Positions 28,635-50,628 of a stretch of DNA of 64,000 bases are shown here, piece after piece (the stretch's first letter is position 1; every line of letters begins with the position of its first letter). Origin of the DNA: Methylobacterium sp. Leaf108 (GTDB lineage: Bacteria > Pseudomonadota > Alphaproteobacteria > Rhizobiales > Beijerinckiaceae); assembly GCF_001423265.1 (NCBI RefSeq), contig NZ_LMND01000002.1, positions 899 to 64,898 on the forward strand, in the 5' to 3' direction. The translations under genes and the position numbers were made by a program. The notes below the pieces were generated by a model, which ran no database searches, was not told where the DNA came from, and was given only the letters and a program-made list of their open reading frames with translations.

Positions 28635-28990
28635 GGGGTAGGCGCTCCGGTGGGCTGTTCGTCTGTGCAAGGGGATGGAGAGGCACGATCAGGCGCATCC
28701 ATGCGGGTCGCCGGCCCCTTGTCCAGTCGCGACGCGACCGGCGCGGTCCGATCGGGCGTTTCCTAACCCCGTTTCGATCAGTCGGTCCGGCAAACGGCTT
28801 AGCTTGATCCGGGCCGGCGGCCGGGAAGATGTCGCGAAGTGCATCGGCCGATCGACGCCGGCTTTCTCAAGATCTGTGCTGCCTTCGGGGTCCGGTATGG
28901 TTCCGGGAAGCGCGGCCGGCTCTGGCGGGAGGAACCATCGATATCGGCGAAGGTTGTTCAGGCTGTGAGCGACATGCTGAGGAGGCACTG
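28635..28990. other. Intergenic 5' region of two divergent genes
   Basis: Carries a GGAAC-N16-GGTT site (28931-28955) for the KGG gene. No promoter for the cNMP-binding gene is recognisable and no other gene is supported. Confidence 0.45.
28931..28955 (+). promoter_or_regulatory. Candidate sigma-EcfG promoter for KGG gene
   Basis: GGAAC (28931-28935), 16 nt, GGTT (28952-28955); one mismatch to CGTT. It lies 35 nt upstream of the KGG gene start, and KGG-repeat proteins are classic stress-induced proteins. Confidence 0.6.
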
Positions 28991-29185
28991 ATGGCATCAG
29001 GAAATTCGACCTCGAAGCGAGGTTTCGCGTCGATGGATCTGGAGCGGCAGCGCGAGATCGCGAGCAAGGGCGGGCGCAGCGTCCCGGCCGAGAAGCGGTC
29101 TTTCTCGCAGGACCGTGAGTTGGCCTCGGCCGCCGGTCGCAAGGGCGGTCAGTCCACCGGCACCGGTCGTCCCGGCGACGAGTAA
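28991..29185 (+). CDS. KGG-repeat general stress protein
   Basis: 64 residues from ATG 28991, with GAGGAGG 6 nt upstream. Two KGG-type repeats are visible: KRGFASMDLERQREIASKGG and SFSQDRELASAAGRKGGQS. Such small hydrophilic Gly/Lys-rich proteins (KGG domain, related to GsiB and con-10) accumulate under desiccation, heat or starvation. The protein is probably disordered in solution. The sigma-EcfG-like promoter upstream and the nearby phyR-nepR locus support a stress role. A shared terminator separates it from the convergent gene at 29338. Confidence 0.88.
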   Translation: MASGNSTSKRGFASMDLERQREIASKGGRSVPAEKRSFSQDRELASAAGRKGGQSTGTGRPGDE

Positions 29186-29337: not shown

Positions 29338-29691
29338 TCAAGCGATGCAGCGGCCAGGCACCATGCGGCGGGCCTCGGGGCCGGCCAACGAACTGATCGC
29401 ACCCTCGCACCCTTCCTTCATGAGCCGCCGCGGCGGCTTGGAGGAGGCTTTGTCGGTTCCAGTCCGATTCGCGGCGGGCGCGACGGATCGCCGGCCCTCC
29501 GACCGCACCACCGCCGCGACCTTGACGGTCGCAGGGGCACCGATCGTACCGGCGTCGCCGATGGCGACCCGATTGGTTTTCAGCGACGCGGCTTGCGCCC
29601 GATCGACGCCATCGCGGATCAGAGGCTGCGCGAAGAGGGCGAGGACGGCGGCCGGCCCGGCCAGCAGGAGTAGCGCACCAGACCGTAGCAT
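29338..29691 (-). CDS. Small exported hypothetical protein
   Basis: 117 residues. ATG 29691 is chosen because GGAGG lies 8 nt upstream. The N-terminus MLRSGALLLLAGPAAVLALF is a signal peptide or membrane anchor. The mature part is basic, and the C-terminus carries a conserved-looking cysteine motif EGCEGAISSLAGPEARRMVP and GRCIA, seen (from memory) in small secreted proteins of Rhizobiales with unknown function. Two Cys could form a disulfide. A GGAAC-N16-TGTT site upstream suggests stress induction. Confidence 0.7.
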   Translation of the reverse strand: MLRSGALLLLAGPAAVLALFAQPLIRDGVDRAQAASLKTNRVAIGDAGTIGAPATVKVAAVVRSEGRRSVAPAANRTGTDKASSKPPRRLMKEGCEGAISSLAGPEARRMVPGRCIA

Positions 29692-29741
29692 CGTCGCAGC
29701 CTCCAAAAACCTGCAGGGGCAACTTGACAGGATGTCGGTGC

Positions 29742-29766
29742 AACACGCGCGCGGTTGTTCGGTTCC
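29742..29766 (-). promoter_or_regulatory. Candidate sigma-EcfG promoter, exported protein
   Basis: Minus strand GGAAC-N16-TGTT (one mismatch in the -10), about 50 nt upstream of the start at 29691. It is back-to-back with the exact site at 29897-29921. Confidence 0.5.
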
Positions 29767-29896
29767 TCGATTGTGCCGTGATGACGCAAAAACAGTATCC
29801 CGCCGGCAGGGGCGGGGTCAGACCTCGTTAACGGATCGTCGCCGAGATCGCGCGAATGTTGCGCAAAAACACCGCCCTTCGAAAAAGCGAGGGGGA

Positions 29897-29921
29897 GGAA
29901 CCGCCTCGGCACAGGTTCGTT
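29897..29921 (+). promoter_or_regulatory. Sigma-EcfG promoter of candidate small RNA
   Basis: Exact consensus: GGAAC at 29897-29901, 16 nt, CGTT at 29918-29921. No coding frame of note starts downstream; instead a strong intrinsic terminator ends at 30017. Predicted transcription start about 29926-29928. Confidence 0.75.
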
Positions 29922-29925
29922 ATTC

Positions 29926-30017
29926 GAGGACCCCGGCCGCCTGGTCCTCAACCGCATTCCCCTTGTGCATTGGCCGGAAACTCATCCACGGGCCGGCTTC
30001 CGCCGGCCCGTTTTTTT
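29926..30017 (+). ncRNA. Candidate sigma-EcfG-dependent small RNA (GsrN-like)
   Basis: Predicted from sequence only: an exact EcfG promoter, then a 5' hairpin (29926-29932 with 29943-29949), a largely unpaired segment 29950-29988 containing the C-rich run TTCCCCTT, then a 9-bp GC hairpin and seven T. The transcript would be about 90 nt. Established background: Caulobacter GsrN is a sigma-T (EcfG)-dependent small RNA that uses a C-rich loop to bind targets such as katG mRNA. Homology is inferred from architecture and context beside phyR-nepR, not from an alignment. No open frame here has a ribosome-binding site in the transcript. Confidence 0.6.
29989..30017 (+). terminator. Intrinsic terminator of the candidate small RNA
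   Basis: CGGGCCGGC (29989-29997), loop TTCC, GCCGGCCCG (30002-30010), then TTTTTTT (30011-30017). A textbook rho-independent terminator on the plus strand with no annotated plus-strand gene in front of it. Confidence 0.9.
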
Positions 30018-30052
30018 GTGCGTGATCGTGCGTCTTCCGGCGCATGAACGTG

Positions 30053-30084
30053 AAAAGGCCCCGGTCTCTGGACCGGGGCCTTTT
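30053..30084. terminator. Terminator downstream of phyR
   Basis: Perfect 14-bp stem (30053-30066 with 30071-30084) with A/T ends in both directions. It lies 30 nt beyond the phyR stop and would end the minus-strand phyR transcript; it could also back up the small-RNA terminator. Confidence 0.85.
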
Positions 30085-30114: not shown

Positions 30115-30918
30115 TCAGCCGGCCTTGACGTCGCGGCGGCGGGCGCTCTGCTGGAAGAACAGGGCTTGGCTGATCACCGCGGAGACGTTGGCAGGCTGGA
30201 ACGGCTTGGCGATGAGGAAGGCCGGCTCGGGACGCTCGCCGGTCAGGAAGCGCTCCGGGTAGGCGGTGATGAAGATCACCGGCACCTCGAAGGTCTTGAG
30301 CAGGTCGTTGACCGCATCGAGGCCGGAGCTGCCGTCGGCGAGCTGGATGTCGGCCAGGATCAGGCCGGGGCGAGTCCCCTCGGACGCGATCTTGATCGCC
30401 TCCGTGCGGGTGCGCGCCACGCCGATGACGTTGTGGCCGAGGCCTTCCACCAGCGCCTCGAGGTCCATGGCGATGAGGGGCTCGTCCTCGATGATGAGGA
30501 TGTCCGTGGCCATGTCGGCGGCGAGTTCACGCCCGGCCTCGTCGACGAGGTCGCGGACCTGCGCCACGTCCACGTCGAGAATGATCGCGGCATCCTCTTC
30601 CGAGAAGCCTTCGAGGCAGGAGAGGAGGAAGGCCTGGCGCGGCAGCGGCGTGATCTGGCCGAGTCGGACCTCCGCCGGAAGGTCGTGCTGCACCTGGTCG
30701 CTCTGCCCGTTCACCGACAGGGAATTCCAGATGCGCGTAAAGACGCGGAACAGGTCGGCCTTGACGTTGGCGCTGCGTCCCAGAGTCTCCGGTTCGTTCA
30801 CCAGCGTTTCCAGCGTCGCGGCCACATAGGCGTCGCCGGCCACCTGACTGCCCGTCAAGGCCCGCGCGTAGCGGCGCAGGTACGGCAGATGCTGCACCAC
30901 GAGTTGGGCTGTCGACAT
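30115..30918 (-). CDS. phyR: General stress response regulator PhyR
   Basis: 267 residues from ATG 30918 (AAGGGG 6 nt upstream). Residues about 1-130 form a degenerate ECF-sigma-like domain (MSTAQLVVQHLPYLRRYARA, LPRQAFLLSCLEGFSEEDAA, VAQVRDLVDEAGRELA). Residues about 138-258 are a receiver with the acidic pair in DILIIEDEPLIAMDLEALVE, phosphoacceptor Asp in ILADIQLADG, the FATGUY-type VPVIFITAYPERFLTG and Lys in AKPF. When phosphorylated, the sigma-like domain sequesters the anti-sigma factor NepR and frees EcfG. Divergent from nepR; both have exact EcfG promoters, giving positive feedback. The PhyR kinase and ecfG itself are not in this window. Confidence 0.97.
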   Translation of the reverse strand: MSTAQLVVQHLPYLRRYARALTGSQVAGDAYVAATLETLVNEPETLGRSANVKADLFRVFTRIWNSLSVNGQSDQVQHDLPAEVRLGQITPLPRQAFLLSCLEGFSEEDAAIILDVDVAQVRDLVDEAGRELAADMATDILIIEDEPLIAMDLEALVEGLGHNVIGVARTRTEAIKIASEGTRPGLILADIQLADGSSGLDAVNDLLKTFEVPVIFITAYPERFLTGERPEPAFLIAKPFQPANVSAVISQALFFQQSARRRDVKAG

Positions 30919-31102
30919 TAGATCCCCTTGAGACGTTCGTTCTTCCGGCCGAGGCAGTGCTCTCGCCTGCCTCTTACCGGACAGCTTCTCCCAGGGCCGC
31001 ACCTTTTTGACGAGGCGCGACCTTTTTGCATGGCCCCTACATGATGCCATGTCCCCAGCGTCGCAAGTGATGCCCGGCGGGAACCCTTTCGGTCGCGGTC
31101 TC

Positions 31103-31128
31103 AACGCCGACGTCGATGGTCCCGTTCC
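31103..31128 (-). promoter_or_regulatory. Sigma-EcfG promoter of phyR
   Basis: Minus strand GGAAC-N17-CGTT, exact (GTTCC at 31124-31128, AACG at 31103-31106 on the plus strand). It gives phyR a leader of about 180 nt. Only 7 bp separate it from the oppositely directed nepR promoter. Confidence 0.85.
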
Positions 31129-31135
31129 AGCCGGC

Positions 31136-31160
31136 GGAACCCATCGCGAGCGGCTGCGTT
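31136..31160 (+). promoter_or_regulatory. Sigma-EcfG promoter of nepR
   Basis: GGAAC (31136-31140), 16 nt, CGTT (31157-31160), exact. Transcription would start near 31167, about 80 nt before the nepR ATG. Confidence 0.85.
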
Positions 31161-31248
31161 GCAGCTGCAGTCTCGGTATGGGTCAAGCGCTTCGTCCAGC
31201 CACAAAAACGGCGTCGCCCATCCGTCGGCTCTCAAGGGGTTCGACTGC

Positions 31249-31476
31249 ATGAACGAGGACGGGAAGGCCGACGGGCCTGGCGGTAGAGACGTGCGTAAGG
31301 AATCCGGTCGCGATTCCATAGCTCCGGGACAACTCAGCGATCACACTCAGAGACGGATCGGCCTTCACCTTCGCACGATGTACGACGCGGTCGTCCAGCA
31401 ACCGGTCCCCGATCGTTTTCGCGATCTCATCGCCAAGCTCGAAGCCGGTGAGACCGGCGCGGATGGCGGCATCTGA
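31249..31476 (+). CDS. nepR: Anti-sigma factor NepR
   Basis: 75 residues from ATG 31249, with AAGGGG about 9 nt upstream. After a charged, probably disordered N-terminus (about 35 residues) comes the NepR core IGLHLRTMYDAVVQQPVPDR and FRDLIAKLEAGE, preceded by DHTQRR. These two helices wrap around EcfG to hold it inactive, and are captured by phosphorylated PhyR. Unlike many alphaproteobacteria, no ecfG gene follows; the next 285 nt hold only a degenerate repeat and a hairpin. Confidence 0.95.
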   Translation: MNEDGKADGPGGRDVRKESGRDSIAPGQLSDHTQRRIGLHLRTMYDAVVQQPVPDRFRDLIAKLEAGETGADGGI

Positions 31477-31761: not shown

Positions 31762-31938
31762 TCAGAGGCTCGACGAACGACCGCGCAGAAGGCCCATCAC
31801 CGCCGAGATGGCGAACAGGACGATGGCCACGAAGAAAACGAGCTTGGCCGCCTCCATGGCGGTGCCTGCGATGCCGCCGAAGCCGAGCAGGGCGGCGACG
31901 AGTGCGACGACGAGAAACGTAACGGCCCAACCCAGCAT
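31762..31938 (-). CDS. DUF1328 small membrane protein
   Basis: 58 residues from ATG 31938, chosen because GAAGG sits 9 nt upstream and because family members begin ML-x-WA; a second ATG 9 nt further upstream would lie on the ribosome-binding site. Two transmembrane helices: [20 protein letters not shown] and [20 protein letters not shown], joined by [12 protein letters not shown]1328 proteins are short hairpin membrane proteins of unknown function, common in stress-related loci. An exact sigma-EcfG promoter lies 61 nt upstream, so this is very probably a member of the PhyR regulon. Confidence 0.85.
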
Positions 31939-31998
31939 CGGAGTCATCCTTCAAAGACGGAACGGGTGCAGCAGGCGCTGCGACCTCTTGACATCCAT

Positions 31999-32023
31999 AA
32001 CGTCAGGTCCCGATGGCGGTTCC
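31999..32023 (-). promoter_or_regulatory. Sigma-EcfG promoter of DUF1328 gene
   Basis: Minus strand GGAAC-N16-CGTT, exact (AACG 31999-32002, GTTCC 32019-32023 on the plus strand). Confidence 0.8.
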
Positions 32024-50075: not shown

Positions 50076-50358
50076 CGTTGATCCCTCTTCGCCGGCATCG
50101 GCGGCTAGCGCGACGGGATGACGGGAGCATGAAGGCACGTCCGCTCCCCGGGGGGCGCGTCCCGCGCCCGGGGGTGGCGTCCCGCGTGGTTTCGTGTATG
50201 ACCGGCGCAGCCTCGACCCGGCAACGGGCACGGGGCCGAACCTGCTTGTGGCGCGACCCTGCTGGACGACATCCCGGCAGCGGCCCGACCCGAGCGTCGC
50301 ATGGCCTCCCGTTCGCGTGGCCGCGCAACCCGACCCAACCCAACCGAAGGGGATAGCG

Positions 50359-50628
50359 ATGTCGATCACGGCAGAGCGCAAGACCGCGCTCATCAAGGAA
50401 TACGCGCAGGGCGGCAAGGACACCGGTTCGCCGGAGGTCCAGGTGGCGATCCTCACCGAGCGGATCACCAACCTCACCGGCCACTTCAAGACCCACGGCA
50501 AGGACAACCACTCCCGTCGCGGCCTCCTGAAGATGGTCTCGCAGCGCCGCTCGCTGCTCGACTACGTCAAGGGCAAGGACGAGGCCCGCTACCGCAGCCT
50601 CATCGAGCGTCTCGGCATCCGCCGCTAA
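50359..50628 (+). CDS. rpsO: 30S ribosomal protein S15
   Basis: 89 residues, the standard length, from ATG 50359 (GGGGA 5-9 nt upstream). Signature [40 protein letters not shown] and [20 protein letters not shown]. It binds 16S rRNA helices 20-22 and autoregulates in other bacteria. Followed by pnp after 218 nt, the near-universal rpsO-pnp order. Confidence 0.99.

Follow-up and report, generated by a model that had tools for sequence, protein, structure and literature searches.

Methylobacterium is the genus of the first PhyR studies. The closest described counterpart of the RNA considered here is GsrN of Caulobacter crescentus (Tien, Fiebig, and Crosson, 2018; PMC5869019), an intergenic RNA of about 100 nt with a stress-sigma promoter, a C-rich loop of six tandem C exposed in its 5' half, and an intrinsic terminator, for which katG is the partner. 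GsrN is stabilized by Hfq and processed into a stable 5' isoform. According to the same paper, predicted gsrN homologues typically lie near ecfG, nepR, or phyR, and positional candidates in Rhizobium, Sinorhizobium, Brucella, Rhodopseudomonas, and Bradyrhizobium have, in addition to an EcfG site and proximity to phyR, a C-rich loop that adjoins a small hairpin and a stem formed by the 5' terminus. The nepR and sigT mRNAs co-purified with GsrN, with a predicted site GGGGGGCG in nepR, and in the experiments described there deletion or overexpression of gsrN left a reporter of the general stress response (GSR) unchanged in Caulobacter. The name Methylobacterium has 0 occurrences in the main text of that paper. 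The rhizobial RNA models SmelA075 and SmelA099 carry C-rich CCUCCUCCC loops that resemble an anti-Shine-Dalgarno sequence (PMC3927594), and in S. meliloti RpoE2 motifs are found upstream of 23 small RNAs (sRNAs) (PMC3616915). A further paper (PMC4814048) provides the EcfG promoter consensus, reports EcfG promoters of phyR and nepR, and uses the words "possibly by a small RNA" with respect to EcfG3.

We analyzed a stretch of 64,000 nt, referred to below as the window. Beside its phyR gene stands a sequence of about 90 bases that is nearly constant in Methylobacterium and three related genera (Microvirga, Salinarimonas, and the YIM 77505-like genus), and which is likely, judging from its sequence features, to be a genuine, clade-wide, EcfG-dependent sRNA gene. 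The features of the locus are as follows.

28931 to 28955, plus strand: EcfG-type motif (GGTT form) upstream of the KGG-repeat stress protein gene (28991 to 29185).
29338 to 29706, minus strand: 122-codon gene without a Pfam match.
29897 to 29921, plus strand: exact EcfG-type promoter motif, with GGAAC at 29897 to 29901, a 16-nt spacer, and CGTT at 29918 to 29921.
29928 to 30017, plus strand: predicted small RNA, supported by models R1 and R2 and by same-genus conservation; the 5' end was set at 29928 by assuming a start 6 nt past CGTT.
29933 to 29977, plus strand: predicted outer stem, CCGGCC (29933 to 29938) with GGCCGG (29972 to 29977), from the fold and from a two-sided change in relatives.
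29941 to 29953, plus strand: first C-rich segment, CCUCAACC in the window.
29954 to 29968, plus strand: inner hairpin GCAU-UCCCCUU-GUGC, whose loop (29958 to 29964) is the predicted seed.
29988 to 30017, plus strand: intrinsic terminator, a 10-pair G+C-rich stem (29988 to 30011) with T7 (30011 to 30017).
30053 to 30084, no strand assigned: palindrome resembling a terminator in both directions, located between the RNA and phyR, seen in the sequence and in part in the terminator listing.
30115 to 30918, minus strand: phyR (Pfam PhyR_sigma2, PhyR_sigma-like, and Response_reg), convergent with the RNA.
30923 to 30930, minus strand: phyR ribosome-binding site CAAGGGGA, the 8-nt complement of UCCCCUUG (29958 to 29965).
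31103 to 31128, minus strand: EcfG motif upstream of phyR (motif scan).
31136 to 31160, plus strand: EcfG motif upstream of nepR (motif scan).
31233 to 31239, plus strand: nepR ribosome-binding site CAAGGGG, the 7-nt complement of CCCCUUG.
31249 to 31476, plus strand: nepR, divergent from phyR, with Pfam NepR at 31348 to 31452.
31999 to 32023, minus strand: EcfG-type motif upstream of the DUF1328 gene (31762 to 31947).

The sequence-only reading of this DNA had described an EcfG promoter with no gene behind it, followed by an intrinsic terminator with seven T, and both elements are present. Promoter motifs of the form GGAAC-N16/17-CGTT occur 5 times in the 64-kb window, against a mean of 0.55 and a maximum of 2 in 60 dinucleotide shuffles. 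The form GGAAC-N16/17-[CG]GTT is kept at 25 of 25 same-genus loci, the window included, with a spacer sequence that drifts. This intergenic element, conserved together with its EcfG motif and terminator, is likely to be transcribed under stress into an sRNA of about 90 nt; transcription would be by the EcfG holoenzyme. Because EcfG-type motifs also stand before the KGG and DUF1328 genes, phyR seems to be surrounded by a cluster of genes under stress control. No ecfG gene was seen in the examined part of this locus, in agreement with what PMC4814048 reports of the phyR locus in M. extorquens.

The predicted RNA folds at -39.9 kcal/mol (z = -3.74), a value that none of 200 shuffles equaled. Its 5' end makes the outer stem, which encloses the first C-rich segment and the small UCCCCUU hairpin, and the terminator comes next. 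A 5' hairpin followed by unpaired TTCCCCTT had been proposed earlier; the C-rich loop is indeed exposed, with a probability of being unpaired near 1 in the RNA of the window, but it is not a plain unpaired region, since the UCCCCUU of TTCCCCTT forms the 7-nt loop of the inner hairpin (GCAU/GUGC) within the outer stem. UCCCCUU is kept in 24 of the 25 same-genus sequences, the remaining one (L013) being one C short, and the first C-tract reads CCUCCCC or longer in the 24 sequences other than that of the window. Across 33 sequences, standard pairing is found in 93.9% of pair cells, and two-sided changes occupy 28 cells, whereas shuffles give 6.4 and the best slid version gives 14. The terminator accounts for 25 of these cells, with such changes at 6 of its 9 pairs, and a single outer-stem pair accounts for the other 3, this pair being altered in three sequences of the Salinarimonas genus, where the stem reads CUGGCC/GGCCAG. 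In that genus the inner stem is broken and the loop is nearly unchanged, so the sequence of the loop seems to be more important than the stem that carries it.

When 41 genomes were searched at the DNA level, all 24 of the other same-genus genomes proved to have the RNA, which is far beyond chance; in the 16 non-genus genomes of the 41 no RNA was found apart from one 25-nt match (L026), which we judged by eye to be due to chance. In the alignment of the 25 same-genus sequences, 56 of the 95 columns are unchanged throughout, and the RNAs vary by indels of 1 to 3 nt. At the corresponding loci of about 3 kb, phyR and the 122-codon gene adjoin the RNA in 25 of 25 cases, with matches to nepR in 21 and to the KGG gene in 20. 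A mechanical open reading frame of 226 codons (29345 to 30025) spans the RNA. A conserved frame, as a small protein would leave, was sought across the RNA in the 25 loci and none was found; GTG- or TTG-opened frames within it diverge between species a few codons in, and most overrun the end of the RNA.

The pattern CTGGTCCTCMN{0,3}CGCATTCCCCTT matched at least 117 named loci, and those listed belong to Methylobacterium, Methylorubrum, Microvirga, Salinarimonas, YIM 77505, and some MAGs. Among the 117 named loci listed, GGAAC is present in 117 and the strict EcfG motif in 113, the other 4 having an altered -10 element, and phyR is convergent with its 3' end 134 to 585 nt from the core in 110. 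In five of the remaining 7 listed loci, no more than about 450 nt separates the RNA from the end of the retrieved sequence; the other two, from M. frigidaeris (L134) and Methylorubrum suomiense (L190), have the RNA and the 122-codon gene with phyR absent alongside, indicating that the RNA can outlast its separation from phyR. The position beside phyR, to which the sequence-only reading had drawn attention as a notable arrangement, is a nearly constant feature, but it is not a novel one, as GsrN-like RNAs near phyR had already been predicted elsewhere (PMC5869019).

With model R1, 61 of 298 family genomes gave matches at an E value of 0.01 or below, and 53 of these reached 4e-12 or below: 25 from the genus itself, 23 from Microvirga, 3 from Salinarimonas, and 2 from the YIM 77505 genus. 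Eight family genomes (G135, G171, G232, G237, G269, G278, G288, and G328) had weak matches only; of the three examined, G237 holds a diverged homologue and G288 and G328 match in the terminator only. Of 297 genomes of the order, 42 gave R1 matches at an E value of 0.01 or below, 6 of them from the same genus; an EcfG motif is absent from the 60 nt upstream of all 24 matches examined among the 36 from other genera. Two order matches (L199 and L201) have a C-rich look, but no relative of the PhyR, NepR, or other neighbors of the window was found there. Model R2 matched 15 of 385 class genomes, 2 of them from the genus itself, and none of the other 13, all examined, has an EcfG motif. Nothing convincing was found beyond the family in the order (R1) and class (R2) searches. 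When 30 PhyR loci of the class were scanned, a promoter motif, a terminator, and a C-run occurred together only in that of the window. Rfam gave no family at its gathering cutoff, at the RNA or in the loci of 7 relatives; a permissive full-length match, to SorY, scored 19.6 bits against a cutoff of 111 (E = 0.061). A literature search of main texts, covering few subscription journals, turned up no description of this RNA from either Methylobacterium or Microvirga. As far as we searched, the RNA represents a new sequence family, of a kind already described through GsrN.

The GsrN-like layout proposed by the sequence-only reading holds well. As in GsrN, there is an intergenic, standalone candidate RNA of comparable length, with an EcfG (sigma-T) promoter present as a motif and an intrinsic terminator; the exposed C-rich loop lies in the 5' half and is the best conserved portion; and GSR genes are close by, as for most gsrN homologues. 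All of these properties are strongly conserved. The two RNAs differ in that four C in a hairpin loop and a second C-tract take the place of the six tandem C of GsrN, and in that the partners predicted here are phyR and nepR, katG not being constant. The comparison with GsrN was made by description and shows no sequence link; the class search that gave no convincing match outside the genus used this RNA as the query, not a Caulobacteraceae gsrN. The positional candidates of PMC5869019 share the EcfG site, the place, and the loop architecture but belong to other families and were likewise compared by description only. SmelA075 and SmelA099 differ in having three or four hairpins with repeated loops, and Methylobacterium is unmentioned in the text of PMC3927594 available to us.

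New here, and absent from the earlier reading, is a match between the loop and the ribosome-binding sites of the two adjoining switch genes. In the window, AAGGGGA, the complement of UCCCCUU, forms the phyR ribosome-binding site. Among the named loci listed, and counting only those where a start could be placed, AGGGG lies 3 to 12 nt before a possible start in 98 of 99 cases for phyR and 95 of 96 for nepR, each gene being a single event however many species keep it. The same sequence is rare in the four neighbor genes (0 to 11%), with 0 of 70 for the KGG gene, 1 of 29 for the 122-codon gene, 1 of 27 for the cNMP gene, and 6 of 54 for the DUF1328 gene. All of 148 phyR leaders, a count that includes species twice, contain AGGGG. 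In the genome of the window itself, CAAGGGGA-N3-9-ATG occurs 6 times (control, 0), with phyR included, and AAGGGG-N4-9-ATG occurs 86 times (control, 42), with phyR and nepR included; about 6 of the 20 examined among these 86 resemble gene starts by eye, among them rpsO.

The match was also compared with the distribution of the RNA. In family genomes AGGGG precedes phyR in 5 of 5 with the RNA versus 5 of 24 without it, 1 of these 24 having no start placed (one-sided Fisher test, P = 0.002); in the class sample the figure is 4 of 25 besides the window, with 4 incomplete loci left out. For nepR, AGGGG is found in 3 of 5 family genomes with the RNA, 2 of 26 without it (two with a diverged RNA being counted among the 26), and 0 of 10 in the class sample; in both RNA-bearing genomes of the Salinarimonas genus in the family sample, nepR lacks it. 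Since the RNA-bearing genomes form a related group, this link is an association and not a proof. Duplex energies are too noisy for ranking targets: phyR, with a mean of -22.9 versus -20.5 for the KGG gene, does not stand out, and among 20 loci it took first place at 10, second place at 9, and third place at 1. EcfG-like genes were not recovered as targets by AGGGG (0 of 6), and complements of a longer core (AAGGGGAATGCG, at most 1 mismatch) gave 18 sites, the RNA itself included, versus 7 in the control, with no clear set of gene starts.

The complementarity to phyR and nepR, together with its rarity in the four neighbor genes, suggests feedback on the switch. We give an even chance to the reading that this is a stress-made sRNA of about 90 nt whose UCCCCUU loop pairs with G-rich ribosome-binding sites, foremost those of its neighbors phyR and nepR; that the loop is accessible in vivo and pairs is what we infer, as is the direction of the effect. 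EcfG would transcribe the RNA under stress, and the loop would then pair over the phyR and nepR ribosome-binding sites. Pairing across a ribosome-binding site normally blocks translation. As phyR and nepR also have EcfG motifs, the probable circuit is one in which EcfG increases transcription of both genes and the RNA restrains their translation. Further targets may be found among the mRNAs that carry AAGGGG, such as that of rpsO and, judged by eye, those of a LuxR-type regulator and an ATP-grasp-like protein, in which case the RNA, like GsrN, would control several mRNAs. More tentatively, and with the balance somewhat against it, we propose that the RNA is a feedback arm of this clade's own, in which a loop that is the exact complement of the phyR site and nearly that of the nepR site masks both and tunes the partner switch at translation, the nepR-sigT mRNA found with Caulobacter GsrN being a trace of the same wiring. 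If true, this would place an RNA-level brake, a post-transcriptional layer, in the general stress switch of Methylobacterium and Microvirga.

Nearest to this stands the possibility, which we also rate somewhat short of even, of a GsrN-type effector RNA that is made by EcfG and acts through its C-rich segments on many downstream mRNAs but leaves phyR and nepR essentially unaffected. AGGGG would then be ordinary, and it is indeed also an ordinary strong ribosome-binding site, rpsO having AAGGGGA. The layout and setting are those of GsrN, for which no feedback on the GSR reporter is described in PMC5869019, two species keep the RNA without an adjoining phyR, and genome G113 has a second copy away from phyR. 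The AGGGG counts speak against such an effector, as the sequence is uncommon in the neighbor genes and CAAGGGGA precedes few of the genome's starts, yet AGGGG is found before the two switch genes in nearly all of the named loci listed.

Feedback in trans has also to be weighed against a transcript or terminator that does not act in trans, and only insulates phyR from opposing transcription or interferes with it in cis. The convergent orientation in 110 of the 117 named loci listed would suit this role, but we consider it improbable, as conservation of the loop far exceeds what an insulator needs, the separate two-way palindrome already terminates phyR, and the RNA is retained in two species without phyR and, with an EcfG motif, in a second copy elsewhere. 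The proposal of the sequence-only reading, a GsrN orthologue acting through katG mRNA, fits the C-rich loop, the EcfG motif, and one leader, that of G002, whose start region AAGGGGGA pairs better than shuffles at the 0.05 level (P = 0.013), but it is very improbable, because, of 16 same-genus genomes that all have the RNA, 5 lack any TIGR00198 katG match and 1 more has a sub-cutoff fragment, and because the other nine of the 10 katG leaders, 6 of the 10 having been located from a profile match rather than a recognized start, gave P values of 0.107 or more. With katG rejected as a constant target, we do not file the RNA as GsrN.

Three further observations follow. An rpsO-like gene start at 50347 to 50361 (plus strand) has the ribosome-binding site AAGGGGA and may be a further partner or merely a strong site. 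The second copy in G113 (L070; G113:C48, 1603 to 1682) has its own EcfG motif, with phyR absent from the stretch examined; its hairpin loop is kept and its first C-rich segment is altered. In a sister genus (G080 and G237), a diverged RNA of shorter length, preceded by an EcfG motif, lies on the 3' side of phyR (L073, 586 to 659; L357, minus strand, promoter motif at 2471). In G080 the phyR site mismatches the diverged RNA, which in both genomes has a CCGGCC/GGCCGG stem around the loop CCGCUUUGCCCCCAUC.
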